A DNA stretch of 21,406 nt, taken from a virus. Positions 2,837 through 20,243 of this stretch are shown piece after piece. Location: positions 1 to 21,406 of the IMG/VR virus record IMGVR_UViG_3300023301_000133; one strand, given 5' to 3'. The position numbers were made by a program, and so were the translations under genes. Below the pieces are notes generated by a model. The model worked only from the letters and a program-made list of their open reading frames with translations, was not told the origin of the DNA and did no database searches. The stretch's first letter is position 1. Each line of letters begins with the position of its first letter.

Positions 2837-2878
2837 AATTTGTACTCCTTATAGCGGCAGGGGATGCCTTGAGGGGAT

Positions 2879-2908: not shown

Positions 2909-2916
2909 CGTGTTGC

Positions 2917-3900: not shown

Positions 3901-3932
3901 TTCGTTCCTTTAAGTTATAGTTATGTATATGA

Positions 3933-3955: not shown

Positions 3956-3956
3956 A

Positions 3957-5062: not shown

Positions 5063-5064
5063 GA

Positions 5065-5247
5065 TCAGGAACCCTCTTCTAAGGGTTCTATGGAGCCTGT
5101 ATCAGGGACGTCTTCAATGAGTTGGAACCAATCTTTGAACTTGGCGTAATTCTCGTTAGAAATAACGGCATAATCACCACATTTAAGAGGCTTTGATTCG
5201 ATGCCTAAAATTAAGGTGCATTGTCTTTTAAGTATTACATTCTTCAT
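5065..5247 (-). CDS. Small unknown protein of the head-tail connector cluster
   Basis: I prefer ATG at 5247 (MKNVILKRQCTLILGIESKP, 60 residues) over a GTG nine bases upstream, because GGAGG sits 9 nt before this ATG and abuts the GTG. The protein is short with a likely beta-rich N-terminal half and an acidic C-terminus (SIEPLEEGS). I recognise no family. Its stop is 2 nt before the neck gene and its start 2 nt after the previous stop, so it is a tightly coupled member of the late operon and probably contributes to the connector or neck. Confidence 0.65.
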   Translation of the reverse strand: MKNVILKRQCTLILGIESKPLKCGDYAVISNENYAKFKDWFQLIEDVPDTGSIEPLEEGS

Positions 5248-5249
5248 AT

Positions 5250-5678
5250 TTACCACCCTCCGAATGTTTTAGATGTCCAGCTAGTTCGGGTTGGATCTTC
5301 TAGATCTATATTCGTAATAATCGCGTCTTCTGGGAGCATTGAATTACCTAGATCTTGGGGTGTTTCTCTCACTGTTTTGCGGCATCCATTCCAAATATCC
5401 CAGAAAGGTTTTCGAGTATCTGAATCAGCGCCGAATTTTCCTAGCGCCATCGCACCCGCAAAGGCTTCGATACCAGCCCTTACAAGATGTTGTTCATCTT
5501 CACCTAACGTTTCCATGTTGTGACGGGCGAGAAGTGCATTAATTTGGCCGGATGCGCTCTCGATCCACTGTTGAACCAATGCGGTATTAACCGGCTGGGA
5601 AGTCGCTGTAATTCGTGCAGCTTTAAGGGGAAGGTTTGCAACAACATTACTAAGGGTTGCACCGTGAATATTAATCAT
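5250..5678 (-). CDS. Probable head-tail connector (head completion) protein
   Basis: The longest frame opens at 5726, but ATG at 5678 (MINIHGATLSNVVANLPLKA, 142 residues) has GGAGGA 8 nt upstream and overlaps the preceding stop by 8 nt, so I use it. The sequence looks mostly helical (QWIESASGQINALLARHNME and AGIEAFAGAMALGKFG). That matches the all-helical gp6/gp15-type head completion proteins, which form a ring under the portal. No specific motif proves this, and the call rests on predicted helicity, size and position after the capsid gene. Confidence 0.55.
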   Translation of the reverse strand: MINIHGATLSNVVANLPLKAARITATSQPVNTALVQQWIESASGQINALLARHNMETLGEDEQHLVRAGIEAFAGAMALGKFGADSDTRKPFWDIWNGCRKTVRETPQDLGNSMLPEDAIITNIDLEDPTRTSWTSKTFGGW

Positions 5679-5898
5679 TTTGTGAATCCTCCAACATCTG
5701 AATGAAATCCTCTTTGGTGTTCCCATTCCATTCAGGATCTAAACCTTGATCTTTAGCTAAACTGTATAAATCGGATCGAGTTTGATCTTCAAGATCATCA
5801 TCTTTTTTAGGTGCCTCAGATATGATCACCTCCTTTTGTTGGAGCTTTTCAAACTCCTTTAAGGGAATCCATTTGTTTTCATGTTTACGGTAGTTCAT
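5671..5898 (-). CDS. Small protein with HeH/LEM- or SAP-like helix-extended-helix domain
   Basis: The 75-residue product has a basic, coiled N-terminus (KEFEKLQQKEVI) and an acidic linker (KKDDDLED). About residues 39-70 read TRSDLYSLAKDQGLD...GNTKEDFIQMLE, which is the pattern of HeH/LEM or Rho-N-like helix-extended-helix folds. Such small proteins commonly follow the major capsid gene in phages and are often annotated as head or head-fibre proteins. The exact role is unknown. GAGG lies 8 nt before ATG. Confidence 0.6.
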   Translation of the reverse strand: MNYRKHENKWIPLKEFEKLQQKEVIISEAPKKDDDLEDQTRSDLYSLAKDQGLDPEWNGNTKEDFIQMLEDSQND

Positions 5899-5934
5899 TT
5901 CGAGATCCTCTTGGCGGGTTAAAACTTAATATAA

Positions 5935-5975
5935 TGATGGGGAGGGAATCGAACCCCCCTTAAACCGTTCCATCA
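5935..5975 (-). other. tRNA-like acceptor/T-arm minihelix after the capsid gene
   Basis: On the minus strand TGATGG (5975-5970) pairs perfectly with CCATCA (5940-5935). Inside, GGGGGG (5959-5954) pairs with CCCTCC (5946-5941, one G-U) and closes a 7-nt loop TTCGATT that matches the tRNA T-loop consensus. A 10-nt insert (AACGGTTTAA) replaces the D and anticodon arms. There is no anticodon arm and no CCA end, so this is not a functional tRNA. It may be a terminator/processing hairpin, a tRNA relic or a tRNA mimic. Confidence 0.6.
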
Positions 5976-5982
5976 ACTCGGC

Positions 5983-6903
5983 TTATGCAACATCCGTGAA
6001 AGCAATTGCATACAGGGGATTCACAACCACGATCGAAGCATTCGCGCGACCATAAAGCTGTGATCTGTTATTTTTGGTGGTCTCATCGTGTTCAAATTCG
6101 GCAGATGTCCAATCCAAATACAAAATATTAGCTGAATTAAATGCACAAACAGCACTTGATGAAACGCGCTGAATATCGGCTGCCGCACTTTGAGCACCAT
6201 CCTGAAAAATACGGTTACCGATTATCACGCGCTGAATGCCAAGATAATCCGCAAGATATTCAGCAAGCTGTGAAGCTGTAGCATTCTTGTATCCGGTCTG
6301 AGATTGAAAATCATCATGATCCCGAAGCTGATTTGCCTTGCTCAACCCGAGAAAAAGGGAGTCTGCAAGAGAATCTTGTGCGGCGTCCCGTAGATCAGAA
6401 AGGGGTGTACTAGCCGGGTCGGTCCACTGTTCACTAGCTGCCAGTGAAAGAGCCCTTACAGTCACATCTTGAGAGTTCGTGCTGGACGTTCCAGCACCGG
6501 ATAAAACAGAATTCAATTCATCGTCTTTGTCGAACTCGATCTGAGCCTGAAGGTGCGGAACAAAGGAATTTTTAACTTTCTGAAAAAGTTTATCTTTATC
6601 CATTGCGCGCGGGTATTCCTTAAAGTGCGAGATCTCTTGAATCTCATACACCCGATCACTCATCGGGGTTGTGAGTTCGGTTGCGTCGGTGCCCATGGTT
6701 TTAAATCCTGTAAGGGCGTTAGTGGGTGCAATAGCCTGAAAATCCAGGGTCGAGATCTTGCCGGCATGGCCAGCAATCCCACTGGTCGGGACGACCTGAC
6801 ACACAATGTCAGTCATGCTGGTTTTTAGGACACCATCATCTTTCAGCCCCTGGTAAATTTGCGAGGTTCTAGCGTTTGCTATCTGTGAAATATCAAAACT
6901 CAT
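5983..6903 (-). CDS. Major capsid protein
   Basis: Two ATGs exist (6909 and 6903). GGAG is 7 nt before 6903 but only 1 nt before 6909, so I use 6903 (306 residues, MSFDISQIANARTSQIYQGL). The protein ends VVNPLYAIAFTDVA. Sequence is a mix of helices and strands with a Cys in CQVVPTSG and long acidic helices (QIEFDKDDELNSVLSG). I call it major capsid protein because it follows the protease/scaffold gene and precedes the connector genes, and has a size typical of HK97-fold capsid subunits. It probably assembles on the nested scaffold and is not cleaved extensively, though that cannot be read from sequence. The gene is followed by a stable hairpin. Confidence 0.8.
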   Translation of the reverse strand: MSFDISQIANARTSQIYQGLKDDGVLKTSMTDIVCQVVPTSGIAGHAGKISTLDFQAIAPTNALTGFKTMGTDATELTTPMSDRVYEIQEISHFKEYPRAMDKDKLFQKVKNSFVPHLQAQIEFDKDDELNSVLSGAGTSSTNSQDVTVRALSLAASEQWTDPASTPLSDLRDAAQDSLADSLFLGLSKANQLRDHDDFQSQTGYKNATASQLAEYLADYLGIQRVIIGNRIFQDGAQSAAADIQRVSSSAVCAFNSANILYLDWTSAEFEHDETTKNNRSQLYGRANASIVVVNPLYAIAFTDVA

Positions 6904-6946
6904 TTTCATTCTCCGTTTTGTTTAAGTTAAAAAACTGGTTTGTTAA

Positions 6947-6982
6947 GGTTATGTTAGAGGTTATGTTAAAGGTTAAATTAGG
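6947..6982. repeat. Three imperfect 12-bp tandem repeats before the capsid gene
   Basis: The plus strand shows GGTTATGTTAGA, GGTTATGTTAAA and GGTTAAATTAGG in tandem between the capsid start and the protease stop, and the last copy covers the stop codon. In the direction of transcription they read as TAACATAACC units in the capsid leader region. They could bind a regulator or reflect a local duplication. Confidence 0.6.
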
Positions 6983-7430
6983 AATTCATTTCGATATCCA
7001 ACGCTTCCAGGCGAGAGCACTTATTCGTCTTCATCAAGTGTTCAATCTTATCACCGTAATTAGCGAACTCAAGAACTTGCTCGGGTTCTCCCTGAGTCCC
7101 TCTTTCGTGAAGGTTAAGGACGCGCTTAGGAACCATATTAAGAGACTTGAGGTCATCTTGAAGCGGTTTGATAAGGGACGTTACGAGATCGCTAATTTGC
7201 GACAGAGTGACGATCTCAGTATCATCGGTAGTGCTCAACGCCGGTTCAACAGGTTCAACATCTTCTGTGTTATCTTCTGCCAAGTCCAGCTCCTTAGCAT
7301 TCTCCTTCTGTTGCTCTTGAACTTTCTTCATAAGAGCTTGAAGTTCGGCTAGAATTTCGGCCATTTCCGGGGTAGCTTTTAGCGCCTTTTCGAGTGCATC
7401 CAACTGTTCTTTCTTTTCTTTAGGGTTCAT
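6978..7430 (-). CDS. Nested scaffolding protein from an internal in-frame start
   Basis: Inside the protease gene an ATG at 7430 (MNPKEKKEQLDALEKALKAT, 150 residues) is preceded by GTGGAG with 5 nt spacing. It begins exactly where the protease domain ends and the scaffold-type sequence starts. This is the arrangement of lambda C/Nu3 and Mu I/Z, where an internal start yields excess free scaffold. The product has a Glu/Lys/Gln-rich coiled-coil N-terminal half (MKKVQEQQKENAKELD), an acidic linker, and a C-terminal segment (HLMKTNKCSRLEALDIEMNS) that could be the capsid-binding helix. Confidence 0.75.
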   Translation of the reverse strand: MNPKEKKEQLDALEKALKATPEMAEILAELQALMKKVQEQQKENAKELDLAEDNTEDVEPVEPALSTTDDTEIVTLSQISDLVTSLIKPLQDDLKSLNMVPKRVLNLHERGTQGEPEQVLEFANYGDKIEHLMKTNKCSRLEALDIEMNS

Positions 7431-8003
7431 AGTTTCTCCACTTGCTAAATTAGCGTAATTGGTTTTTGACAATTCAACTTCGTAAGTATCTTGAATCGAC
7501 CCTATGTTTTTTAAGAATGGGTCCGCTGTTAGCGATATTTCTCTAATAATAGGTCCAAACTTTTGGCCATCTTGCGTCACATATTCCGGGCTGATGCCGG
7601 CTGAGACATAACCTAGACGGCCCTCATCAAGGGCTAACTGAGTATCTTTAGTCCGCTCAATCTTGGCCCATACCCCAGTGAAACCGTCCCTATTAGCCAT
7701 TTTGACTTCTAAAACGCTGCCATCCCTATCGTGAGATCTCTGATGATCCTGCCATACGGGCATTCTGTAAGGCGTTCCGTTAGCAACATCATCAAAATGA
7801 TTATTAAGATTTGTGGTTTGAGATACGATCTCTCTAAGATAAGTCATGTTGAAAGTGATCTCAGAATCCCCATATTGAATCACTTCATCCAGGGGCAAGA
7901 TCTTGACCCAAGAAGTATTAGGGTTTTCACCTTTAAAATCAGAGTCATGGGATGAGAATTTAAGGCTAAATTGAATGGCCTTATCTTTAATTTCTTTAGA
8001 CAT
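6978..8003 (-). CDS. Prohead protease-scaffold (Mu I-like)
   Basis: I use ATG at 8003 (MSKEIKDKAIQFSLKFSSHD, 341 residues), with AGGTG 6 nt upstream. A GTG at 8012 also opens the frame but lacks a site. Residues about 40-170 follow the Mu I protease layout: WQDHQRSHDRDGSV with a candidate His87, then GLW-like TGVWAKIERT, then GYVSAGISPEYV with candidate Ser134 or Ser138, and IREISLTADPFLKN. The rest (residues 192-341) is a charged, Gln/Glu/Lys-rich helical scaffold. The protease matures the prohead and also removes the scaffold. The next gene downstream is the capsid, the expected order. A start within the gene probably makes scaffold separately. Confidence 0.85.
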   Translation of the reverse strand: MSKEIKDKAIQFSLKFSSHDSDFKGENPNTSWVKILPLDEVIQYGDSEITFNMTYLREIVSQTTNLNNHFDDVANGTPYRMPVWQDHQRSHDRDGSVLEVKMANRDGFTGVWAKIERTKDTQLALDEGRLGYVSAGISPEYVTQDGQKFGPIIREISLTADPFLKNIGSIQDTYEVELSKTNYANLASGETMNPKEKKEQLDALEKALKATPEMAEILAELQALMKKVQEQQKENAKELDLAEDNTEDVEPVEPALSTTDDTEIVTLSQISDLVTSLIKPLQDDLKSLNMVPKRVLNLHERGTQGEPEQVLEFANYGDKIEHLMKTNKCSRLEALDIEMNS

Positions 8004-8023
8004 AAATTGCACCTATTGAGGGA

Positions 8024-8064
8024 ACTACTATTGGTAGTAGTATATAAGAAGATAACCGAGTTAA
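8024..8064 (-). promoter_or_regulatory. Candidate late promoter before the protease gene
   Basis: Reading the minus strand, CTCGGTTATCTTCTTATAT (ending at 8042) is followed directly by a 7-bp dyad ACTACTA-TTGG-TAGTAGT (8024-8041 on plus). The same CTCGGTT-N-CTCCTTATAT element stands before terS. TATATA serves as -10. A standard -35 is missing. Confidence 0.5.
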
Positions 8065-8079
8065 TAAATTTATTCCAAG

Positions 8080-10194
8080 TCATTCCAAGTCATTTAATAT
8101 ATCTTGATAACCTTCTTCGGAGGGGAGGATATATGACCAGATGCACCTGCATCGATCCCCACCGTCGCATATATTAGGAGGGTTAAGCCGGTTGTATTTA
8201 GAACTTCCAACTTCGGCGCGTTCCCCATCCGCGTGAGCACAAGGGATGCAAGTGTTGAATTCTAGGACGCTTGAATATTCAGCCATGACGCGAGTGTCTT
8301 TAATACCCTTATTTCTAGCTTGTTCTTGGATACTTGAGATAATTGCTGTGCGCCCCTGGTTAATACTTCTTCCGGTATAGCCAGCAATGAGGGATTTAGT
8401 TGCAGTTGCCTTTTGAATCGGAGGCTTAGTTTTATTTCTAACGTTCCCTTCAAGTTCTGAAACAGCGTTGTTTTCTAAATAAGAAGAATTAACATTTGTA
8501 ATATGCGTGGCAATTCGATCTGCCTCCGCTATGGCAAAACTATTGCTTCCAAATGGTGCGGCAGTTGCAGACGCTTTAGCAATCTTGTCTGTAACTCCAA
8601 GTTCATAAAGAACGCTAGATTTGCCCGTTTCAATCAGGTTGCGAACAGATGGTTGAATAGCGTTTCTAATCGCGGGTTGATACTCGTCGGATATAGCCTT
8701 AGTCAGACCCCTTAAATCCATTCTATTGGTGATGTCTGCACTTCGATTCACATAGGCATCGCGCATGGATTTAATTACCGTCTGTGCTTCTTTAGCAGCC
8801 TTAGATTCAATCTTTTCAAGTGCCCCTGAAAGCCCTTCAATATCTTTTTTAGATAGGGTCAAGTTGTGTGAAAATTCGGGTTTGACTTCTGGGGCAACTT
8901 CTGCATCTGCAACGGGGTCGAATCCCAGCTCTTCGCGAATCTGGTTACGATCATCATTTGTTAAATCCAATATTCCAGCTTGAACCGCCTGAATCACCTT
9001 ATTTAGACGGTCTGGATCTTTTGTTTCAGATCCCAGATTGAAAGTAAGTTCTGGGTAATGCTCTTGCGGTCCCCAAACGGTATCAACAATACGTCTCACA
9101 ATATGCTCATTAATTAGGTCACAAACTGATGTTCCGAAGTAGGAAATACGTCTAATATTCTCTTGCTGGTCTTTTGTTTCAGCGAGGGCTTGCGTTCCAT
9201 ATTTGCCAAGTCCAACCAATGAACCCGTAGCTTGAAGAGCAAGGGCAATCTGTGAATCACAATAGGTCCGGAGGGATTGAAAATCAGGAAGTTTTCCACC
9301 AGGTGAGATCCAGTCCATTTCATAACCGGGAAAGGCAAATATGGGATCATCAAGAGCACTCGCCGCATTTATTTCATCTTTGATGCGTTGCAGGTCCCCC
9401 GTATCAAAGAGATCTCCAGTCGCTTTAACAGTTCGATATCCGTTGCCATGAGATTCAGCGGCGGCTGTCTCAATCTGGGTGATGAGTTGTTTAATTTCTG
9501 TCCATCTGACAACAGGTCTGATCGCTGAAACACCTTCCAAATCAAGGCCGATTCCGGTGCTATAAATTAGAAGGTTTTCAGCTTCGATATAGACATCAGA
9601 TTGACCGCCTTCATATTCAAATTCTGTGCCAATCCATTGCCTGCCATCCTCACTAAATACCCATCGTTTAACGGTTCCAGGTCTACGATATGCAAGTTTG
9701 GATATACCACCATCCTCATTGTCTATAATTTCCCAGAGTGAGAATCCGTAAACTCTATCGCCTAGTGTCCAACCTTTTAGGAATTCCTTCCAAGAGGATG
9801 GTTTGCTAAGAAGGCTGGAGGAAACAAATGCAGCTTGCTCAAGGCATAGTTCGTGGTCATCTGAGCAAGCGGGCGCAACCACTGCCCAATCCCCTGAAAC
9901 AAGCCCTTCATGAGTGCTATCTACCGAGGATTTGACCAAAGGATCTGATAAATAGGTCTGCCAATATGCACCAGGGTCTCCTCTAGTGCCTCTTGCATAA
10001 TAATTGTACTGATAGGTTGAATCTTTTCCGCTCGGCATCCCGTCAACATAGTATGTATTCGGTCTGCCGGATTCTTCCAAATTTGAAAGTTCAGGATTAG
10101 ACAACCGCAAATTAACTCTTTCTAATTGAGGGGTTGCATTTGACTCAGAATGATGTTTGACTTTGTATTTTTTATAAAGATTATTTTTGGACAT
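8080..10194 (-). CDS. Portal protein fused to Mu F-like head morphogenesis domain
   Basis: ATG at 10194 (MSKNNLYKKYKVKHHSES, 704 residues) has AAGGAGG 8 nt upstream and lies one base after the terL stop, so I prefer it to an ATG at 10239. Residues about 50-450 resemble DUF935/Mu gp29-type portals (DPLVKSSVDSTHEGLVSGDW, YRRPGTVKRWVF, GLGKYGTQALAETKDQQ). Residues about 480-704 resemble Mu F minor head proteins, ending in Cys-rich EFNTCIPCAHADGERAE and ICDGGDRCRCIW (Cys649, 652, 676, 682, 684). The portal forms the dodecameric DNA entry ring, and MuF-type proteins bind it inside the head. In Mu and most relatives these are two genes. Here one continuous frame encodes both. Confidence 0.85.
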   Translation of the reverse strand: MSKNNLYKKYKVKHHSESNATPQLERVNLRLSNPELSNLEESGRPNTYYVDGMPSGKDSTYQYNYYARGTRGDPGAYWQTYLSDPLVKSSVDSTHEGLVSGDWAVVAPACSDDHELCLEQAAFVSSSLLSKPSSWKEFLKGWTLGDRVYGFSLWEIIDNEDGGISKLAYRRPGTVKRWVFSEDGRQWIGTEFEYEGGQSDVYIEAENLLIYSTGIGLDLEGVSAIRPVVRWTEIKQLITQIETAAAESHGNGYRTVKATGDLFDTGDLQRIKDEINAASALDDPIFAFPGYEMDWISPGGKLPDFQSLRTYCDSQIALALQATGSLVGLGKYGTQALAETKDQQENIRRISYFGTSVCDLINEHIVRRIVDTVWGPQEHYPELTFNLGSETKDPDRLNKVIQAVQAGILDLTNDDRNQIREELGFDPVADAEVAPEVKPEFSHNLTLSKKDIEGLSGALEKIESKAAKEAQTVIKSMRDAYVNRSADITNRMDLRGLTKAISDEYQPAIRNAIQPSVRNLIETGKSSVLYELGVTDKIAKASATAAPFGSNSFAIAEADRIATHITNVNSSYLENNAVSELEGNVRNKTKPPIQKATATKSLIAGYTGRSINQGRTAIISSIQEQARNKGIKDTRVMAEYSSVLEFNTCIPCAHADGERAEVGSSKYNRLNPPNICDGGDRCRCIWSYILPSEEGYQDILNDLE

Positions 10195-10195
10195 A

Positions 10196-11671
10196 TTACC
10201 AGCCTCCTTGGATGCGACCTCGGTTATTGGCGGAACCAATAGTTTGGGGTTTAGATTTATTGCTATAGATACCGTTATATAAATAATTCAGTGCTTGGCT
10301 CATCGCGTCGACCTGATCATCGTTTTTACCCGTTGGAAACCTTAATGCTTCTATTTCAAACGCTGGGGCCCAACCTGTGTTAGGAATGAAGATATTAAGA
10401 GCACTCCAATAAGGCTGGATCGCCATAACACGCCCCTCTTTAGATCCCTTGGGTTCAATCGGTAGAATGCCCGGTACGTGTTGCTTAAGCATAGGAATAA
10501 GTGTCTTTCCATCAGCTTTAGCTTCAATAAGTTTAGCTCTAGCTCTGGACCACAAAGGGTCTTCAGCCTTGGCTTTGATAATATTAAGGGTCTCGGTTGA
10601 ATCCCATTTGCCGCGACATTGATCTAGCATGTAAGCATTAGCCCCAATCATTGCCCACAATTGACCTACAGCGAATGAAGTATTTTTACCCTTTCCACCG
10701 TGCCTTAAATCCCAACTTTGAATAATTGTGGCTTCGTTAAGATCCAAATCATGCACACTGAAATATTGAATACCTTCCTTTTTAAGGAGCGTTCCTCCGG
10801 GAGGACTTGGTACACCCTGATAGGATCCATAGTAGATGTCAGGTCTGCTTTTCTTTATGGCTAGAAGCTCTTCTGACGACATCCTCCAAGGCCACAACGG
10901 TTCACCGATTCCTCTGGGGTCATCAGGATCTTCATCATTCTCTTTAATCGCGGGGAAGTTGATTGTTTCCCATTCACCGGGGTATGTATCTCCTAGATAA
11001 GCGATCAGGTCCGCGTGATGCATCCGAGTATTTACAACAACCATTGATCCGCCTTTATCGAGTCGAGATTTCACATCCTGATCAAACCAATTCTCTATTC
11101 GCCTACGCATCGTCTCGCTGTATGCGTCCTCTCGATTACCATACACATCATCGACAATAATAAGGCTTGCGCCAGTACCCTGAATCGCCTGTCCAGCACC
11201 TTTCGCTAGGTAGCCTCCCCTATGGTTAATAATATCCCACTGGTCGGAGGTATTGATACTCTTATAGCGAGAATCTGAGGCTACTTTCTTAGGATTTAGG
11301 GAGGTCTCAGGGAAAATCTTTCGATAGATCTCAGACTGAATAACCCGTTTAGCGTCCCTACTCATGCTTTTGGCGAGTGTTGACGAATGGCTTGTCCCTA
11401 TTATTCGATCATTTGGGTGATTGCCAAGGTAGTAGGCAGGTAGTGCTCTTGATGCTAACTGTGACTTCCCATGCCTGAAGGGGATAGTTAGAATCAGTCT
11501 TTTGATCTCACCTTTCGCAACCTTTTCTAACTTGGTGGCGATATATTCAAGATGCCAATTATCTTTCCATTCAAACTCAGCAGTCATCTTAGCGAAAGTG
11601 TAGAAATCCTTGCGGGCGAGTTCTAACTCTACTTCTTCAGGAGAGAATGGTATCTCTATAGATTTAATCAT
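10196..11671 (-). CDS. terL: Terminase large subunit
   Basis: This 491-residue protein has the two expected halves. The ATPase half shows a Walker A-like FRHGKS (65-70, usually PPRHGKS), Walker B IIVDD (171-175) and a coupling motif TRMHHADL (215-222). The RNase H-like nuclease half shows SWD (Asp321), a LIEAKADGK segment (381-389) and GKNDDQVDAMSQAL (448-461) with the acidic residues for metal binding. Length is normal and no key residue is missing. The enzyme packages DNA into proheads through the portal and cuts it. It overlaps terS by 4 nt and abuts the portal gene. Confidence 0.95.
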   Translation of the reverse strand: MIKSIEIPFSPEEVELELARKDFYTFAKMTAEFEWKDNWHLEYIATKLEKVAKGEIKRLILTIPFRHGKSQLASRALPAYYLGNHPNDRIIGTSHSSTLAKSMSRDAKRVIQSEIYRKIFPETSLNPKKVASDSRYKSINTSDQWDIINHRGGYLAKGAGQAIQGTGASLIIVDDVYGNREDAYSETMRRRIENWFDQDVKSRLDKGGSMVVVNTRMHHADLIAYLGDTYPGEWETINFPAIKENDEDPDDPRGIGEPLWPWRMSSEELLAIKKSRPDIYYGSYQGVPSPPGGTLLKKEGIQYFSVHDLDLNEATIIQSWDLRHGGKGKNTSFAVGQLWAMIGANAYMLDQCRGKWDSTETLNIIKAKAEDPLWSRARAKLIEAKADGKTLIPMLKQHVPGILPIEPKGSKEGRVMAIQPYWSALNIFIPNTGWAPAFEIEALRFPTGKNDDQVDAMSQALNYLYNGIYSNKSKPQTIGSANNRGRIQGGW

Positions 11672-12120
11672 CTTTTTTTAGCCTTATCTAATAGGGCTAA
11701 GAATGACTTCAATTCATCTTTAGACATTCCCGATAGATCAACTTTTGTGGTTACGTCGTGTTGCATAGATCCAGAATGGTCGATGCGATCAATGAAATCG
11801 GCTTGGGTTTTGCCTAACAATTCGGAAGCTCTCAGGCGATCTGATAACTTTGGATCATTGCCACGTTCGGTAATATTCCCGTTCATTACATCTGTCCAAA
11901 ACTTCTGTCGTTGTTCGCGCGAGGCTACAAGTGGGGAGTTCTTATGTGCATTAGCTAAGTATTCTTGGATGTTACCTTTTGATAGCTGTTTAGACCCTCT
12001 AACCCTCATTGTGGCATCATTCCCTGAGTATCCAGCTATGCGGGCGCTCTTCCATGCAGTGTTTCCTGCTAGGTAGGCGTCACACCATGCCTGTTGCTTT
12101 AATGTAAGTTTTCTTGCCAT
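11668..12120 (-). CDS. terS: Terminase small subunit
   Basis: The 150-residue protein starts MARKLTLKQQAWCDAYLAGN and continues TAWKSARIAGYSG, the helix-turn-helix signature of the Terminase_2 family ('lt.kq..F...yl.g.na..Aa..AGYs'). A central helical part (RLRASELLGKTQADFID) should oligomerise, and a basic tail (LALLDKAKKR) follows. It recognises the packaging site and hands DNA to TerL. It is the first gene of the long late operon, with a promoter-like region and terminator upstream. The stop overlaps the terL start (ATGA). The packaging site may lie in or near this gene but I cannot point to it. Confidence 0.9.
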   Translation of the reverse strand: MARKLTLKQQAWCDAYLAGNTAWKSARIAGYSGNDATMRVRGSKQLSKGNIQEYLANAHKNSPLVASREQRQKFWTDVMNGNITERGNDPKLSDRLRASELLGKTQADFIDRIDHSGSMQHDVTTKVDLSGMSKDELKSFLALLDKAKKR

Positions 12121-12126
12121 AAGATT

Positions 12127-12180
12127 ACCTATAGATAATGATATCTACCTATGCAGAATATAAGGAGAAAACCGAGATAT
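12127..12180 (-). promoter_or_regulatory. Candidate late promoter/operator region for terS
   Basis: The minus strand reads CTCGGTTTTCTCCTTATATT with TATATT as -10. Then follows a perfect dyad TAGATA-ATGA-TATCTA (plus 12132-12147) between it and the start codon. It shares CTCGGTT-TCT-CTTATAT with the protease promoter region near 8050, suggesting a phage-specific activator. Confidence 0.5.
12147..12164. repeat. 18-bp direct repeat, copy 1
   Basis: ACCTATGCAGAATATAAG occurs here and again, perfectly, at 12277-12294. The two copies flank a strong terminator. Each includes the CTTATAT promoter-like core on the minus strand. Confidence 0.85.
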
Positions 12181-12187
12181 TAAACAT

Positions 12188-12232
12188 AAAAAACCCCACT
12201 CAAGAAATGTCAGAAAACTTGAGTGGGGTTTT
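12188..12232. terminator. Bidirectional terminator upstream of terS
   Basis: CCCCACTCAAG (12194-12204) pairs with CTTGAGTGGGG (12218-12228), 11 bp, extended by A-run/T-run flanks on both sides. It can end transcripts from either strand. It should insulate the late operon from the small genes to its right. Confidence 0.85.
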
Positions 12233-12276
12233 AACCCTTACACAGGACACATATATCCTCATGACAAGATATATAC

Positions 12277-12294
12277 ACCTATGCAGAATATAAG
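12277..12294. repeat. 18-bp direct repeat, copy 2 (promoter-like)
   Basis: This is the second perfect copy of ACCTATGCAGAATATAAG. On the minus strand it gives CTTATATTCTGCATAGGT, followed by a dyad ATATATC/GATATAT (12251-12257 and 12268-12274). A transcript started here would run leftward into the 12188-12232 terminator after roughly 80 nt. Confidence 0.8.
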
Positions 12295-12314
12295 AGGATT
12301 ATTGTTTTTAACGG

Positions 12315-12358
12315 TCAAAACCCTCAATAAAAGTTTTACTTCTTATTGAGGGTTTTGA
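12315..12358. terminator. Perfect 16-bp hairpin, probable bidirectional terminator
   Basis: TCAAAACCCTCAATAA (12315-12330) pairs perfectly with TTATTGAGGGTTTTGA (12343-12358) around a 12-nt loop. The A/T-rich arms contain their own U runs (GGGTTTT and complement). It lies downstream of the minus-strand small gene at 12462 and would stop its transcription. The 100 bp between it and that gene show no gene. Confidence 0.8.
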
Positions 12359-12461
12359 TATCAGGCTTTCTATTTACCACCTTAGAGGCATTCTTATCTT
12401 GAACTAGGGTTAGTACCCCCGGCCTCATTAAGAGTGTGAGGATTAAGGCTTGCTGGAACTC

Positions 12462-12878
12462 TCAGATAGGAAGATTGGCGAGTTTCTCGATGAAGTCATA
12501 CCCGAGAACTGGAATCTCCTCATTGATCAGTTCATCGAGAAACCTCTGAGTCAAAGGCTGTGCAGGCACGTGATCCAGGAGTTCCGCCAATACAACAATG
12601 TGCTGGAAGAATTGGATACACAGATTTCTGTCTTGTTTGAAGAAATCCATGTAGCCGAGCGGCTTTACTTTATTCTCAAAGGTCGTCTTCAGCTCGTCTA
12701 CGATTGTTACGAGCGGCTTAGGGTTGATGCCGCCCGACTTTATCATCATATCATCGGTCAAGCTGTCCAGTTGCTTGTGGGCACCTCCGGTGATCACTTG
12801 CAGCGAGCCGTCGTTATAGAGATACTCAAGAAACGTAGTTGCATTGTTCGTGATGTGCGTGCATTGTCCGTTACTCAT
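12462..12878 (-). CDS. Small unknown protein 1 with structured leader
   Basis: This 138-residue frame (MSNGQCTHITNNATTFLEYL...) has AGGA 6 nt before ATG. A 183-codon frame on the opposite strand begins only with TTG and has no ribosome site, so I prefer the minus strand, which also matches its neighbours. The protein looks helical (QFFQHIVVLAELLDHVPAQP) without a transmembrane segment or signal peptide. I recognise no family. It has its own sigma70-like promoter and a hairpin leader nearly identical in layout to that of the next gene, and lies between terminators and the AP2 gene, so it is likely an early or regulatory/host-interaction gene rather than a virion gene. Confidence 0.7.
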   Translation of the reverse strand: MSNGQCTHITNNATTFLEYLYNDGSLQVITGGAHKQLDSLTDDMMIKSGGINPKPLVTIVDELKTTFENKVKPLGYMDFFKQDRNLCIQFFQHIVVLAELLDHVPAQPLTQRFLDELINEEIPVLGYDFIEKLANLPI

Positions 12879-12889
12879 TTCATTTCCTG

Positions 12890-12928
12890 TTCGGATTTGC
12901 TCCTAGCGAAATTGCTTAGGAGCTTCGG
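12890..12928 (-). promoter_or_regulatory. Structured 5' leader: CCGAA-hairpin-CCGAA (copy A)
   Basis: On the minus strand CCGAA (12928-12924) is followed directly by the stem GCTCCTA (12923-12917)/TAGGAGC (12905-12899) with an 11-nt loop. A second CCGAA (12894-12890) follows, then the SD of the 12462-12878 gene. The other small gene (12987) has the same layout with a different stem sequence. Confidence 0.65.
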
Positions 12929-12950
12929 TTTCGTGTTCATCATGCATCTA

Positions 12951-12979
12951 TTTATAGCGACTCACTCCAGACTCTCCAA
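12951..12979 (-). promoter_or_regulatory. Sigma70-like promoter of small gene 1
   Basis: The minus strand reads TTGGAG (12979-12974), a 17-bp spacer, then TATAAA (12956-12951). The promoter of the next gene is TTGGAA-N17-TATAAA with similar flanks (TATAAATAG), so the two look duplicated. Confidence 0.7.
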
Positions 12980-12986
12980 AACAAAT

Positions 12987-13253
12987 TCAAATCGGAGGTG
13001 AGGAAGCACTTGAGATTATCCGAAGTGCTTCGTGAGGATAGTAGAAATCTTTGGCGAGACTTTGTTCAATCCCTTTTCCACCCGATGTAGTCAGGCATCT
13101 TTCACGATCACCCGTCGAGATCAGATAGATGGCACGCGCTAAGATGTTTCGTGGGGTTAAGGTCTTCCCATCCATGATCATCTTCTCATAGTGAGAGAAG
13201 CTTCGTGCACTGTTGTACTCTCTCTCTACGGCTGTCAGGGGATACTTGCTCAT
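12987..13253 (-). CDS. Small unknown protein 2 with structured leader
   Basis: The 88-residue protein (MSKYPLTAVEREYNSARSFS...) has a strong AAGGAG site 6 nt before ATG. It is basic and helical in its first two thirds (HYEKMIMDGKTLTPRNILARAIYLISTGDRERC), with no recognisable domain, signal or membrane segment. It has its own TTGGAA-N17-TATAAA promoter and a hairpin leader like that of the downstream gene. Each of the two genes having a matching private promoter and leader, rather than sharing one operon, suggests a common mode of control. Confidence 0.72.
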   Translation of the reverse strand: MSKYPLTAVEREYNSARSFSHYEKMIMDGKTLTPRNILARAIYLISTGDRERCLTTSGGKGIEQSLAKDFYYPHEALRIISSASSPPI

Positions 13254-13266
13254 TTTAATCTCCTTC

Positions 13267-13297
13267 TTCGGTTGTGCTGGTTAATTCCAGCGTTCGG
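13267..13297 (-). promoter_or_regulatory. Structured 5' leader: CCGAA-hairpin-CCGAA (copy B)
   Basis: The minus strand shows CCGAA (13297-13293), then stem GCTGG (13291-13287)/CCAGC (13280-13276) with loop AATTAA. CCGAA (13271-13267) and AAGGAG follow. Layout matches copy A although stem and loop sequences differ. Confidence 0.65.
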
Positions 13298-13314
13298 TTT
13301 GTCATTCTCATTCT

Positions 13315-13349
13315 CACCTATTTATAGCAACCCGATAGGTGCTTTCCAA
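13315..13349 (-). promoter_or_regulatory. Sigma70-like promoter of small gene 2 with dyad
   Basis: The minus strand reads TTGGAA (13349-13344), 17 bp, TATAAA (13326-13321). A perfect 7-bp inverted repeat CACCTAT (13315-13321)/ATAGGTG (13335-13341) brackets the -10 and spacer and could be an operator. Confidence 0.7.
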
Positions 13350-13439
13350 ACTTATTTCAAACATTTATTCTGCACTGCTGTTGATGCATAACACACCTAA
13401 CACGGGGTTACACACCAGTCAAGCATGATCCAGGCCATC

Positions 13440-13964
13440 CTAGCCCAACTTTCTAATATATAATGTGTTCACATGGTCGGGTCCTAAATGGAGGTAACTA
13501 AAGGCTTTTTGGACCTTCTCAGCAATCCCATACGACGTGAGCCTCGCTGTTAGGGGTTCCTTCAGTTTGTGATCATAAATCTTTAGATCACCTGATTTCT
13601 GGTATTTCACAAGGGTTGACTGGAGATCAAGCCTACAAGAGTGGCCCCAATCAGGTGAATCAGGTTCGAGGGATTCCAGCAAGGTGTTATACATCGATTC
13701 CCAGTCACTATAAGGACTCACCACCATAGTCGCGACGACATGAGCAACATGGGCGTGTTCTGGACTCTCATATGTTCCGATGTGTCGGCGAGTACGAGTC
13801 GTGGATCCTAACCAGACGGTCGCGATCCAACGATAATTTCCTTTTGACGTGCGTCTGGCACGAACTCCTTTTAGATCCGACAAAGGTAAATTGTTTTGAT
13901 GGAAGTTTGGATTCGGGTTCGGCATGTTTTTTGGGATGATCTTCTTGGATTCGGATTCAGTCAT
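13440..13964 (-). CDS. Stand-alone AP2-domain DNA-binding protein, candidate regulator
   Basis: In this 174-residue protein residues about 32-80 read KGVRARRTSKGNYRWIATVW and then RRHIGTYESPEHAHVAHVVA. That follows the AP2/ERF pattern 'GVr.r..gkW.A.i.......lG.F.t.eeAa.A...a'. Phage AP2 domains usually sit in HNH homing endonucleases, and I see no HNH motif here. The remaining C-terminal 90 residues (DWGHSCRLDLQSTLVKYQKS...) match nothing I know. It starts from a good promoter (TTGACA-N16-GATAAT) that overlaps a dyad, and borders the origin-like region. A transcription regulator of the early/late switch is plausible. The basic N-terminus is Asn/Pro-rich. Ribosome site AAAGGAATT is present. Confidence 0.75.
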   Translation of the reverse strand: MTESESKKIIPKNMPNPNPNFHQNNLPLSDLKGVRARRTSKGNYRWIATVWLGSTTRTRRHIGTYESPEHAHVAHVVATMVVSPYSDWESMYNTLLESLEPDSPDWGHSCRLDLQSTLVKYQKSGDLKIYDHKLKEPLTARLTSYGIAEKVQKAFSYLHLGPDHVNTLYIRKLG

Positions 13965-14024
13965 AACATAATTCCTTTAATTAGGTTTGGTTTGGTGATT
14001 CTCAGTTTCATCTTACAACAACAC

Positions 14025-14052
14025 ATTATCATTCTACTGATCAGAATGTCAA
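14025..14052 (-). promoter_or_regulatory. Promoter of the AP2 gene with overlapping dyad
   Basis: TTGACA (14052-14047), a 16-bp spacer and GATAAT (14030-14025) on the minus strand. The spacer carries CATTCT...AGAATG inverted arms around a CTGATCAG palindrome, a good operator candidate. Confidence 0.75.
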
Positions 14053-14540
14053 GCATTGCATTGTTTGAATCAACATCACCTTAAAACACCTATGAGTTCC
14101 AAACACCTATCAAACATCCATTCTAATAAGTTACATGATAACTAAGTCACGTCACCTACTAAGAGTTGTTATTTGATAGCTGTCTGTTTGTCTCAGTAGT
14201 ATTATCATGATCATGATGATGAGGACTGTGGTCATAGGCTTCAACATCTTACATCTGATCTGATATTCGTGTATGGCATCTCAAACTACTGATCATACTT
14301 TCAGTTGGCATACTGGTATGCTAGTTCTGACTAATAGAGACGCTCTTATACTATTATCTTAGTTTATACCAAAACACCCCACTGATCGATTACGTGAATA
14401 GCCACCATGTATCCCCCGCTAAGAGTTTTCGATGGTTTCAAGGTGCTGATGTGACGTTCGCTTGACATTTCAGAATTACAAGAGTGTTTAGGATTTGAAA
14501 TTTCTGCGCTTAAATCGAGCTAGCGCTTCAAGTTTTGCAG

Positions 14541-14898
14541 CTAACTAGGTTTTTTTAGTTAGTTAGCCAGCAAAAACCTAGCTACGACACCATTAAGCGA
14601 CGCTTTTCAGACTTTTGGCTAACTGTCTAACAGATCGGGGGATAGGGGAGGGATATATACAAGGAAGAAGAAATATCAGAGGTTATACAGAAATGGTCTA
14701 TATATATATATATACTCTTATTACTTATTATTAGTTAGACAGTTAGCCAAAACCTCCTTACGATACTCTAAAACATCGATTTTCATGACTAACTCATCGA
14801 TTTAAGAGTTAGCCAATGTCTAACTACAGTTAGCCAACACCCGATTTTGACTTAAAAACACGAAAATCAGTTAACCAAGAGATTCAGGGAGGCTAACT
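14541..14898. repeat. Iteron-like AGTTAGCCA repeats, candidate replication origin
   Basis: The nonamer AGTTAGCCA occurs at 14561-14569, 14741-14749, 14807-14815 and 14828-14836 on plus, and on minus at 14616-14624. Near copies are AGTTAACCA (14869-14877) and GGCTAACT (14891-14898). Around the first, CTAGGTTTTT and AAAAACCTAG form a 10-bp inverted repeat, and GCTAACTA/TAGTTAG a further dyad. Iterons of this kind bind replication initiators in plasmids and many phages. The replication genes start directly to the right. Confidence 0.65.
14613..14752. repeat. 19-bp perfect inverted repeat enclosing an AT-rich segment
   Basis: TTTTGGCTAACTGTCTAAC (14613-14631) and its exact reverse complement at 14734-14752 are separated by 102 bp. 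The spacer includes a G-rich run (GGGGGATAGGGGAGGG) and a (TA)8 tract at 14699-14714, which is an easily melted sequence. Confidence 0.8.
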
Positions 14899-14974
14899 GT
14901 TTCCTGCTAAGTAGTCAGTTTTTCGCAGGATTCAAAAGAATCACAAACAACTAATTTTTTCCCGAAAATCAACG

Positions 14975-15014
14975 TATTTTCATCTATTTTCATCTATTTT
15001 CATCTATTTTCATC
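14975..15014. repeat. Four perfect 10-bp tandem repeats (TATTTTCATC)
   Basis: TATTTTCATC is repeated four times without change over 40 bp, one helical turn per unit. The repeats lie about 30 bp before the early promoter. This phased AT-rich array may be a DNA unwinding element, a bent segment or a binding array for the RHH protein encoded next. Confidence 0.85.
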
Positions 15015-15043
15015 AGAATTAGGCATATTAGCAATTATCCTTT

Positions 15044-15062
15044 TATAATACTGTATAGGTGT
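15044..15062 (+). promoter_or_regulatory. Candidate early promoter of the replication operon
   Basis: TATAAT (15044-15049) is a perfect -10, and the -35 is poor. ATAGGTGT (15055-15062), the reverse of the recurrent ACACCTAT word, covers the expected start site and may be an operator. Confidence 0.5.
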
Positions 15063-15121
15063 GTACTCGAACATAACGGAATACATTTCCACTCACAGCA
15101 TCTTACTTAAGGAGAAATATT

Positions 15122-15304
15122 ATGAGCAACCTCACCGATGATATCACAATTATCACGACGAAAGTAAAACAAGAATTCGCGCGTCGTGTGAGGGTAGAAG
15201 CGGCTCTAAAAGGAACCACAATGAGCGCACTTATTCGAACTCTATTGATTGAGCATTTCGATAGCGAAGATTCTTTAAGCACAGAAGAAATGATGAAGAA
15301 ATGA
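15122..15304 (+). CDS. Ribbon-helix-helix (CopG/Arc-type) DNA-binding protein
   Basis: The 60-residue protein reads DDITIITTKVKQEFARRVRV followed by EAALKGTTMSALIRTLLIEH. This is a strand (about residues 7-13), helix (14-30), turn and helix (33-46), the pattern of CopG/Arc/MetJ dimers that bind DNA through a beta ribbon. It is the first gene of the plus-strand operon, with AAGGAG before ATG. It is placed right after tandem 10-bp repeats. CopG-type proteins often repress their own promoter and neighbouring replication genes, so autoregulation of the replication operon is likely. It is not followed by a recognisable toxin. Confidence 0.75.
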   Translation: MSNLTDDITIITTKVKQEFARRVRVEAALKGTTMSALIRTLLIEHFDSEDSLSTEEMMKK

Positions 15305-15353
15305 TGAAAATGTTTAATTCGGAAAACAGCTATATCTTACTGAGGACTAGAAC

Positions 15354-15842
15354 ATGACTAAAATAGGATTTGGAAAAGGGGACGAAAACATCGGAAAAGA
15401 TGTTAAGATCGCTCGAAGAACTGATGGGGGTTACGAAACTCATCATACTTATACACACACCGAAATCGACTTTCCCAAACTCCAGAGCCTGCCCATAGAG
15501 GGCGTGCTACGGGATATAGGAGGATGGTATGATGATCCTTCAGGAAGATGGTCTATGCCGGGCGAAACGCACACAGGCCCTCCAAAGATTCATATAAGGG
15601 GTGATGGAACCACATGGACTCACTACAAGACGGGGACAGGGGGCGATGCTATCTGCCTGATCAGATTCTGGCAGTGTGGGAATTACGACACAAATCAAAA
15701 TTTCTCAGCCTCCGGGTATGTAGATGCTGCTAATTGGCTCGCCGCGCGTTACGACGCTTATATATCCTACAAGAAACACTTTGAGTCATCCAGGAAGAAT
15801 GGAGAATCTCAAGCAGCATTGTTCGAAAACTGCGAAGATTAA
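15354..15842 (+). CDS. CHC2-like primase zinc-domain protein lacking zinc ligands
   Basis: Residues about 46-132 of this 162-residue protein follow the DnaG CHC2 zinc-domain layout: SLPIEGVLRDIGGWY, then RWSMPGETHTGPPKIHIRGD in the place of 'CPFH.E.tPS..v', then WTHYKTGTGGDAICLIRFW in the place of 'CFgCg.gGdai.fv', then VDAANWLAARYD in the place of 'eA...La'. The GGDAI and helix parts are kept, but the four Cys/His ligand positions are replaced. It probably acts as a DNA-template-binding partner of the primase-helicase encoded 35 bp downstream. The start has TGAGGAC upstream. An alternative is a structural protein unrelated to CHC2, with a chance match. Confidence 0.6.
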   Translation: MTKIGFGKGDENIGKDVKIARRTDGGYETHHTYTHTEIDFPKLQSLPIEGVLRDIGGWYDDPSGRWSMPGETHTGPPKIHIRGDGTTWTHYKTGTGGDAICLIRFWQCGNYDTNQNFSASGYVDAANWLAARYDAYISYKKHFESSRKNGESQAALFENCED

Positions 15843-15877
15843 ACAGACACCAAAACCAAAACACACGGAGAATAGCA

Positions 15878-18493
15878 ATGAAAATAAGTAAATATGATGT
15901 ACAAAACCGCTTAATGAAAACTCTAAGAGACGCTGGTCATGCTAAGAATGAAAGAATACTTCAAGCAAAGAAGTATTGTGAAGCCACTGATCTAGATTTC
16001 GAGAAGGTCAGTGTTGGGTATATGTCCAGCGCCGTTTGTATAATTCCATCCGCGCCATACCTATATAAAGATGATTCAAATGACCTTATTCTCAAGAAAA
16101 CTAAGGATAAAGATAAAGGATACGATCCTAAATTCCCAGAACACGCAGGAATAAACCAGACCCATGGCGGTTGGAATCTCAAAAGAATTTCGGAAAGAAT
16201 GTCGCAAGATTCTGGTGCAGGTCGTCTAGTTGTACTGGATTTTGATGGCACAAAAGACGACCTGAAATTAGGCACAACTGGCCGAAAACCTTTAGTTTCT
16301 TTGGTAAACAAGATTTCGAGTGAGTTAGGAAAGTTAGGAATGCCTTCATGCGTAACTGAAATAACAACACCAGATCCTAACGACGTTACGCGCTCTAAAA
16401 TGCACGTAACCTTCAAGTGCTCCGAAAGTGTGAGAGCTGTATCAAGAGAAGACCACGAAGCTAGGTATGACACCTTAGAGGCGTCTGTACTCGAAATAGT
16501 AGACCAATTGGCGGAAGAACTCGACCTACCCAAAGAAGAAGTCGATGCATTGATACTAGATCCAGGTCTTCGACAAATTTCGAGACTGAAACGTCTGGCG
16601 GGCCATGCAAAAGAAGGCAAGAATAATGCCGTTGAGGTCATTAGCACCTCTCCTGATGCCTATGTAAAATGGACTTCTATCTTAGAGACCCGACCCCAAA
16701 CTCTGAATGTTAATCCAATGACTCGCTATACTTATGGCAACATCGTTCGTAAGTCTGTGTGGACGGTTCTCAAAGAAAAGGACGGTTCTCAAACAATCAT
16801 GGAGGGACATGAGGACGTCAGCAAGAGCTTTACCATCGCCCGTCATATATACCCCATCACCTCAGAACTGGACCGTGAATCTGGTCACCGTGCCGTAAGG
16901 TTCAGGTGCCATGATATTCGAGAAAATGTGCACTATGAGTCTTTAAGTTTTTCGGCGTTCACAAATACAAATGACAAGAATACTGAGATGAGTCGCTTGA
17001 TTCATAAAACCATTATTAGCCCAGGGAAAAGCGACGAATTTATCAAAGCCATAAATTTTTATAGCAATTCTTCGTTATCCAAGAAAGAATTGACTTCCAC
17101 CACATTACAGGGTTGGCAAGAAGATTCCGAGGGAAATCCCGTATATATTAATGGAAACCGTTGTTGGGGTCAGGATTGGATTGTTAAAGGGAAGGGAGCC
17201 GCTAAAAGATCTCAAAGAAAAGGATCACTTGATGGGTGGAAAGAAGGTGTCGAAACTCACATCAGCGGAAGTCATGGCCTACTTATAGCACTTGGAATTT
17301 CTTTCTCAGGATGTTTGGTAAAACCTTTAGGTAAAGCATCCTATATCGGGCATTTCTTCGGAGAATCTACTGTAGGGAAGACAACCTCAATGCTAGCAGC
17401 GGCATCAATTTGGGGACAACCCAAACCAGGAGCTATGATTGGAACATGGAGAACAACGGATAACAGGCTTGAAATATCCGCACAGAACATGTCTGGAGCT
17501 TGCCTTATTCAAGACGAGTTAAAGGAGTTTGGAACATCCCAACGGGATAAAGAAAGCCTCCGAAAAGTCATCATGATGATCGCGAATGGTAAAGGAAAAG
17601 GGCGAATGACTAGTGATATTGAAGAGCGCGCAGATCTAACATGGGATTTATCCCTAGTGTCGACGGGCGAAAATTCAATAAAAGATTGGCTGGGAAACCT
17701 GCAACAAGGAGGTGAATCGGTACGGGCTATAGACATTCATATACAGGATGGCGATTTAACGAAATCGTTTGATCATGCGAAGAATATTCAGGAGTGGTCA
17801 TCCGCAAATTATGGATTCGCAGGCAACGAATTTGCGGAGGCCATAATCGGAAATGTGGCGGATATTAAAACCTTGGATGAATCTTTAGAACTCCAACTCA
17901 GAGCTTCATGTGATGACAAAGAACTAGTCAGAATTATGGATTCAGTTTCCCTTATATGGACATCGCTTCTTGTCGCTCATTTCTATGGAATATTACCAGA
18001 TATCATTACGAATGATGATATTTTCGAGTCGATTTCATGGCTCCGAAATAACATTGAAGAAGGAAGAGGCACGGTTAACACACCTGCAACGCGCGCGCTA
18101 GAGAGACTTAAGGATATGATGACGGTTAACCCCGCCGCATTCCCTAGCGAGACCGCTTATGATAGCTCTTATCAGTCGGTAGTAGGTGTAAAACAAACAG
18201 ATCCAACATCTGGTTTCGGAGACGTTATTACACCGAAATCGACTGGATCTTTTTACACATGCGAGTCCATGATAAAGGGGTCTGGAATCTGTTTAAAAGC
18301 TGGAATCTCAGCCAGGGCATTTCTGACTTGGCTTGAAGATCAAGGCATTTCGGAATCTTCAGGAACCCAAACTCGAATCGGAAGTGTTCGCAAGCGCTGG
18401 CATCTCATTACGCTGGATAAAGATGATAATGACGGTGATGAACCCCTTCTAAAAAAACATAGTGTTCCAGAAATGGTTTTACCCGTTGAATAG
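15878..18493 (+). CDS. Primase-helicase: AEP-like N-terminus with DUF927 ATPase
   Basis: This is the largest complete protein here (871 residues). The middle and C-terminal part holds a DUF927-type P-loop ATPase: LDGWKEGVETHISGSHGLLI (451-470), Walker A GESTVGKTT (495-503), Walker B ACLIQDE (541-547) and sensor-like LSLVSTGENS (591-600). The N-terminal 260 residues contain VVLDFDG (Asp121/Asp123), MHVTF (His176) and ISRLKRLAGH (234-243). This order (hhDhD, H, then basic) recalls archaeo-eukaryotic primases, though less securely. A C-terminal winged-helix-like stretch may follow (RAFLTWLEDQGISESSGTQT). It should unwind and prime DNA at the adjacent origin. GGAG lies 8 nt before ATG. No frameshift or lost key residue is seen. 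Confidence 0.8.
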   Translation: MKISKYDVQNRLMKTLRDAGHAKNERILQAKKYCEATDLDFEKVSVGYMSSAVCIIPSAPYLYKDDSNDLILKKTKDKDKGYDPKFPEHAGINQTHGGWNLKRISERMSQDSGAGRLVVLDFDGTKDDLKLGTTGRKPLVSLVNKISSELGKLGMPSCVTEITTPDPNDVTRSKMHVTFKCSESVRAVSREDHEARYDTLEASVLEIVDQLAEELDLPKEEVDALILDPGLRQISRLKRLAGHAKEGKNNAVEVISTSPDAYVKWTSILETRPQTLNVNPMTRYTYGNIVRKSVWTVLKEKDGSQTIMEGHEDVSKSFTIARHIYPITSELDRESGHRAVRFRCHDIRENVHYESLSFSAFTNTNDKNTEMSRLIHKTIISPGKSDEFIKAINFYSNSSLSKKELTSTTLQGWQEDSEGNPVYINGNRCWGQDWIVKGKGAAKRSQRKGSLDGWKEGVETHISGSHGLLIALGISFSGCLVKPLGKASYIGHFFGESTVGKTTSMLAAASIWGQPKPGAMIGTWRTTDNRLEISAQNMSGACLIQDELKEFGTSQRDKESLRKVIMMIANGKGKGRMTSDIEERADLTWDLSLVSTGENSIKDWLGNLQQGGESVRAIDIHIQDGDLTKSFDHAKNIQEWSSANYGFAGNEFAEAIIGNVADIKTLDESLELQLRASCDDKELVRIMDSVSLIWTSLLVAHFYGILPDIITNDDIFESISWLRNNIEEGRGTVNTPATRALERLKDMMTVNPAAFPSETAYDSSYQSVVGVKQTDPTSGFGDVITPKSTGSFYTCESMIKGSGICLKAGISARAFLTWLEDQGISESSGTQTRIGSVRKRWHLITLDKDDNDGDEPLLKKHSVPEMVLPVE

Positions 18494-19356: not shown

Positions 19357-19599
19357 ATGGATAAAATCGCTGAGCACGATCTGATCACCGGGATGGCTAG
19401 AACTCATTCTTTCCTAACCCGAAAAAACCCTGAAATGATAAGCATGACCCCAGAAGAACTTAAGGAAATTGCATATACCTTATGGCTAGAAACTCCGAAA
19501 TTAGGTCTATCGTTTCTAGAATTTATGCGAAATATTTTCTGGAAGGATTTCTATAAAAACCGTTATAAATTGGCGTTCCTAAAAAAGAACCTTAGTTAA
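19357..19599 (+). CDS. Unknown early protein C
   Basis: The 80-residue helical protein (MDKIAEHDLITGMARTHSFL...) has AAAGGATT before ATG. Its C-terminal third is rich in aromatic and basic residues (FMRNIFWKDFYKNRYKLAFL), which could contact nucleic acid or a membrane surface. It ends with CTA AAA AAG AAC, but the -1 frame closes after two codons, so I do not call a frameshift here. No family recognised. Confidence 0.7.
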   Translation: MDKIAEHDLITGMARTHSFLTRKNPEMISMTPEELKEIAYTLWLETPKLGLSFLEFMRNIFWKDFYKNRYKLAFLKKNLS

Positions 19600-19627: not shown

Positions 19628-19894
19628 ATGGTAAAAAAATCAAAAAGATCTGCTGCATGGCGCAATTCCGTCCCCGATATGCCTTTTTCTGAGAAGCAAA
19701 AATACAGCAAATTTGATTCAGAAGCGACCTGGGTGCCCCCTAGCCGAATTAGGGCCCCTAAAGGCGTCTCACCGGGTCCCATTATCGGCGGCAGAAGAAC
19801 ATGGATCGCTTATTTTGGATTAAAAATGAAAAGTTTTGGTAAAAAAAAGGCGAAGATGATCCACACGAATGTCTTGGATTATACGACACCGTAG
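19628..19894 (+). CDS. Unknown early protein D, short form (frame 0)
   Basis: The 88-residue product starts MVKKSKRSAAWRNSVPDMPF, with GGAGAAAATGT upstream. It is basic and Pro-rich (ATWVPPSRIRAPKGVSPGPI) and ends in frame 0 with AKMIHTNVLDYTTP, which looks less like natural protein than the alternative -1 reading. At codons 72-74 lies AAA AAA AAG, containing A AAA AAG in phase, followed by a hairpin, so a longer product is probable. No family recognised. Confidence 0.6.
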   Translation: MVKKSKRSAAWRNSVPDMPFSEKQKYSKFDSEATWVPPSRIRAPKGVSPGPIIGGRRTWIAYFGLKMKSFGKKKAKMIHTNVLDYTTP

Positions 19895-20019
19895 AGAGCG
19901 CCCTAGATGTTCAAACTACCCGACTAAAGGCGTACAAAAGCAAGACGCAGTGGGAAGTTCCAGCGGACGTTATAAAATGCCCCTCGGGCCTTTATGTCGT
20001 GACCTATGAATTCCCTTAA
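19628..20019 (+). CDS. Unknown early protein D, candidate -1 frameshifted long form
   Basis: Reading frame 0 from 19628 to the AAG ending at 19849, then slipping -1 to GGC (19849-19851), gives 74 + 56 = 130 residues and ends at TAA 20017-20019. The -1 part (GEDDPHECLGLYDTVESALD...CPSGLYVVTYEFP) looks like true coding sequence but has no start codon of its own, and a TAA lies immediately upstream of it (19840-19842). The next gene begins 13 nt later, as expected if translation reaches this stop. The alternative is a natural mutation or sequencing error in the eight-A run. No family recognised. Confidence 0.6.
19843..19882 (+). promoter_or_regulatory. Candidate programmed -1 frameshift signal in an early gene
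   Basis: Heptamer A AAA AAG (19843-19849) in phase, a 6-nt spacer GCGAAG, then stem ATGATCCA (19856-19863)/TGGATTAT (19875-19882), 8 bp with one G-U and an 11-nt loop. Heptamer and spacer length are the same as in the tail chaperone signal at 2277-2324. Confidence 0.6.
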
Positions 20020-20032: not shown

Positions 20033-20203
20033 ATGACAAAAAAATCAAGAATATCGACACAAGATTTTTACGAAATTCTCGTCACACTATTCCACGAAAG
20101 TGAGAATAAAAACAAAGTTTTGGCGCGGCAGATTAAGTTTTATGGAGGCGATTTGTGTATCGACTCTCACAAAGAACTCACAAAGAAATGGAATGATTCT
20201 TAA
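20033..20203 (+). CDS. Unknown early protein E
   Basis: ATG at 20033 (MTKKSRISTQDFYEILVTLF, 56 residues) is preferred to an upstream ATG at 20006, which overlaps the frameshifted frame. The site AGAGAAATATT is weak, so coupling to the frame ending at 20019 is likely. The protein is basic with a helical middle and ends LTKKWNDS. It is the last gene before the terminator. No family recognised. Confidence 0.6.
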   Translation: MTKKSRISTQDFYEILVTLFHESENKNKVLARQIKFYGGDLCIDSHKELTKKWNDS

Positions 20204-20208
20204 CACGA

Positions 20209-20243
20209 AAAAGCCCTTAACTTTCATATAGTTAAGGGCTTTT
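20209..20243. terminator. Bidirectional terminator between early and late groups
   Basis: AAAAGCCCTTAAC (20209-20221) pairs perfectly with GTTAAGGGCTTTT (20231-20243), 13 bp with a 9-nt loop, with A run left and T run right. It serves the plus-strand early operon and the convergent minus-strand genes. Confidence 0.9.

Follow-up and report, generated by a model that had tools for sequence, protein, structure and literature searches.

A small phage gene split at an eight-A run, with perhaps some full-length product by -1 slippage

Does a small gene of an uncultured phage, its reading frame broken at a run of eight As, yield a full-length protein by ribosomal slippage, or has it lost a base? The window, that is, the whole stretch of DNA analysed, is the complete 21,406-base virus record IMGVR_UViG_3300023301_000133. 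A plus-strand operon in its right half holds the split gene together with several orphan genes, and this company suggests that the gene is an early one. The features of the operon and of the locus are as follows.

15122, plus strand: weak ribbon-helix-helix match, operon member
15878-18493, plus strand: DUF927 primase/helicase-like gene, operon member
19628..19894, plus strand: 0-frame ORF of 88 aa (the short form), ATG at 19628, TAG at 19892-19894
19841..19848, plus strand: A8 run, the point of frame change; the next base is G
19843..19849, plus strand: slippery heptamer A_AAA_AAG, in phase
19850..19855, plus strand: 6-nt spacer
19856..19882, plus strand: 8-bp stem with an 11-nt loop, evaluated at -5.4 kcal/mol
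19849..20019, plus strand: -1 frame of 56 codons and TAA (20017-20019), coding-like, here called the C-part
20033..20203, plus strand: next operon gene, starting 13 nt past the stop of the C-part
about 20210-20243: terminator-like inverted repeat, after the one small gene that follows the split gene

Frames, heptamer, stem and coding signal are directly observed. The junction reads GGT AAA AAA AAG GCG in the 0 frame and, after a -1 slip, continues as GGC GAA GAT and so on. No ATG, GTG or TTG occurs in the -1 frame before a GTG close to its end, and the heptamer is placed at the very start of the sole stretch that is open in both frames. A basic N-terminal part, encoded up to 19849, is common to the short and long forms, and the joined product of 130 residues carries an acidic C-terminal part. 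In-phase A_AAA_AAG is so rare (three occurrences in about 6,200 codons: the tail chaperone, the upstream gene at 19581 and the split gene) that the break can be regarded as associated with the A run. (The heptamer at 19581-19587 on the plus strand lies near the stop of the upstream gene, and a -1 slip there would run into a stop after two codons, which shows that harmless heptamers occur.) The first-pass annotation had described a startless, coding-like 56-codon frame entered by a -1 slip at A AAA AAG and followed by a spacer and stem; frames, phase and codon score agree with that description, and the spacer and the stem are present.

The codon score of the C-part is 0.16-0.18 bits per codon, to be compared with means of about 0.25 for phage frames read on-frame and about -0.05 off-frame. 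Leaving out the C-part opens a gap of 138 nt, the only large one in an operon whose other gaps measure 13-49 nt; including it reduces the gap to 13 nt. Because the -1 frame is coding-like and fills this gap in a tightly packed operon, the two frames most likely constitute one gene, the A run marking the join in its 130-residue product, and the earlier proposal of a single joined product is on the same grounds very probable.

How the two parts would be joined is less certain. The favored explanation, which is given not quite an even chance, is that one gene is split at the A8 run and that perhaps some full-length product arises by -1 slippage. An early-operon gene would then code for a small 130-residue protein with a basic N-terminus and an acidic C-terminus, its frame interrupted in the DNA at the A8 run. 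Ribosomes slipping back one base at A_AAA_AAG would make the full-length protein, and those that do not slip would terminate 14 codons later, releasing the 88-residue form. The slippage rate would probably be low to moderate, since the stimulators look weak, and the site may be less a tuned switch between two products than a tolerated break rescued by slippage. (The occurrence of slippage, its rate and the function are what we infer here.) The weights attached to the four readings compared in this analysis (ribosomal slippage, a one-base deletion, a frame open by chance and slippage of RNA polymerase) are judgements, none of them computed.

The split gene has two marks of a programmed -1 frameshift: an in-phase X_XXY_YYZ heptamer within a frame overlap, and a coding -1 frame without a start of its own. 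The structure downstream is not stronger than expected: the stem is unexceptional, with stems of equal length at ~5% of window positions, an energy at the 27th percentile and a folding z of -0.18. Downstream structure at 5-9 nt is common in bacterial -1 frameshifting but not obligatory, and a Shine-Dalgarno (SD)-like stimulator is optional; inspection of the 8-15 nt upstream of the split-gene heptamer revealed none. A_AAA_AAG is among the most slip-prone motifs in E. coli when stimulators accompany it, and even in their absence 61% of such motifs rise above background (PMC4066793). Many of the hairpins predicted in a survey of bacterial genes carrying motifs of this sort were judged to be probably fortuitous (PMC4066793).

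The same genome provides an internal standard of comparison.

2312-2836, minus strand, extending on to about 1965: tail assembly chaperone with a -1 frameshift of the G/GT type, heptamer at 2324-2318

Like this chaperone (G/GT, the phage lambda type), the split gene has A_AAA_AAG, a 6-nt spacer and a -1 extension that would be entered by slippage, so that the identity of heptamer and spacer length pointed out in the first-pass annotation holds. Equivalence of the two signals as a whole is not supported: the chaperone site has a strong 11-bp stem of -14.8 kcal/mol (0.7% and 1.6%, respectively, for length and energy), AAGGTGG just upstream and a place in the tail operon, whereas the split gene has an ordinary stem, no SD-like element that could be seen and no relation to the tail. 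Of the two-form -1 frameshift gene originally envisaged, the joined 130-residue product is supported and the programmed two-product switch stays putative. The extension of the chaperone bears CKCPICNG, a zinc-finger-like motif.

Phage frameshifts are usually located in tail and capsid genes. If slippage at the split gene is real, -1 frameshifting in phages would reach beyond structural genes into an early one, and a single genome would possess two sites that agree in heptamer and spacer but differ in stimulators. E. coli dnaX is another of the closest known systems: an SD-like stimulator and a strong stem accompany its heptamer, and its shifted product is the shorter one, whereas that of the split gene is the longer. 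The dnaX heptamer is A_AAA_AAG in the same phase as in the split gene, and two products come from one start (PMC5009743). A further parallel, -1 frameshifting in a regulatory phage gene, comes from cro of Lactobacillus phage A2 when it is decoded in E. coli; its shifted product is 12 residues shorter, and the shift appears to be irrelevant in the natural host (reviewed in PMC5009743). With A2 cro on record, the earlier remark that such frameshifting has no known standard example among early genes was too strong.

Loss of one base from the A run, whether an error of sequencing or assembly or a real mutation of the phage, with no functional recoding, comes close behind slippage; it is a serious contender that explains the sequence almost as well. 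The first-pass annotation named an indel in the eight-A run as the rival explanation. GGT AAA AAA AAA GGC minus one A is exactly GGT AAA AAA AAG GC, in which the heptamer is in phase. Because the deletion yields an identical heptamer, the motif cannot discriminate between recoding and indel. The break falls on the longest A run of the window, long runs of A are probably hypermutable (PMC1088944), the stimulators of the split gene are at chance level, and the break seemingly lies inside an AP2-like domain (a weak point, taken up below). On the other hand, the other long homopolymers (two C8 and several A7/T7) are free of frame breaks: the C8 at 18697 has coding signal before and after it in the same frame, and the C8 at 21312 is in frame inside a Laminin_G_3 match. 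Apart from the chaperone, about 28.5 kb showed no further frame break that lacks an explanation. Intact homopolymers argue against poor sequencing, not against a natural deletion. The C-part retains its coding signal, however, so that a real mutation would have to be recent. Even after a natural deletion a slip-prone heptamer would remain, possibly with some full-length product, so that rescued break and programmed site grade into one another. A parallel is offered by broken genes that slippage on A runs rescues: they too have a frame interrupted at a long A run and a restorable full product, but they have nine As and polymerase slippage in place of eight As and a ribosomal heptamer (PMC1088944). 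If the break is an indel, the locus serves as a caution: what looks like a perfect slippery site may be an A run that has lost one base.

Window positions 199-18191 are matched at 100% identity, as far as compared, by a second contig, IMGVR_UViG_3300001097_000055 (25,287 bases), which stops at 18191, 1.6 kb short of the A8 site, and leaves that site uncovered. The 18 kb shared by the two show no difference, which also speaks against careless sequencing, although that contig may derive from the same data.

The 130-residue joined product has no match in Pfam, PHROGs, NCBIfam or PDB, no homologue in viral contigs, genome contigs or phages at the DNA or protein level, and none in 39 virus records sharing the terminase. 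Scans for relatives with the primase returned only the identical contig or nothing, and in terminase relatives (at most 40% identity, the identical contig aside) no counterpart of the early genes could be detected. These negatives extend no further than the collections searched and their sensitivity; within that range, the homologue search that had been proposed earlier was run and gave no relatives to show conservation of heptamer or frame relation.

The identity of the protein is suggested, if at all, by a resemblance to AP2 domains of WIAYFGLKMKSFGKKK followed, across the junction, by GEDDPHECLGLYDTVESAL. The pattern sought was a W-x-A strand and then LG-x-[FY]-x-T-x-E-x-A; the best hhalign alignment runs from a WIA strand to the motif LGLYDTVESA across the junction. 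Scored with hhalign against a profile built from 52 AP2 domains of phages, the joined protein reaches 17.15 and the short form 12.0; one of 150 shuffles does as well as 17.15, and the probability is only 5.7%. HMMER gives the joined protein only 3.7 bits, a value reached by at least 7 of 1,000 shuffles, and the Pfam AP2 model does not match it up to E = 10. A predicted model of the C-part alone is of low confidence (mean pLDDT 64). The joined product is perhaps a divergent AP2-like DNA-binding protein, a weak lead that does not amount to membership; as the match spans the junction, it counts on the side of a single gene. (A clearer AP2-like candidate is the orphan protein at 13440-13964 on the minus strand, with 13.7 bits against the phage AP2 profile and a shuffle maximum of 5.7; it has no Pfam match.)

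In the usual phage frameshift, the shift appends a separate extension; here the break would lie inside a domain, should the AP2-like reading be right. The short form would then lack half of that domain, and a break or control of dosage therefore fits better than two functional isoforms. That a programmed -1 frameshift interrupts an AP2-like domain, its rate setting the dosage of functional protein in an early protein of the DNA-binding type, is nevertheless considered unlikely.

It is also very improbable that the 56-codon -1 frame is noncoding and open by chance, with the gene ending at 19894. The frame would be open with a probability of ~5%, and 2-3% of wrong-frame windows match the codon score of the C-part; under a Markov null, an open frame with such a score is expected at about 5e-4. 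Comparison with real off-frame windows of 56 codons is milder, 5.5% being open and, among those open on the same strand, 6% scoring as high, or about 0.3%, so that the combined chance of openness and codon usage is about 0.05-0.3%, depending on the null. The lack of homologues in the collections searched is in keeping with a chance frame, but such a frame would leave the sole large gap of the operon, and the AP2-like motif LGLYDTVESA lies in the -1 frame across the 0-frame stop. Least probable by a little is slippage of RNA polymerase on A8, adding an A in some transcripts and joining the frames in mRNA: the A8 run is at the junction and slippage is possibly productive even on eight As in some IS elements (PMC1088944), but the critical length is nine nucleotides in a large proportion of genomes, eight As being called non-slippery (PMC1088944), and for the E. 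coli polymerase poly(A) is less slippery than poly(T) (PMC6260861).

Two observations concern the surroundings of the locus. The second contig prolongs the left end of the window by ~7 kb, and at its far end lies the start of an open-ended tail-side gene; an open-ended Laminin_G_3 gene lies at the right end of the window. The two may belong to a single gene if the genome is a circle of ~29 kb. The split gene (19628-19650) and its downstream neighbor (20033-20055), both on the plus strand, have similar beginnings, ATGGTAAAAAAATCAAAAAGA and ATGACAAAAAAATCAAGAATA, and in each the start is followed by an A7 run.
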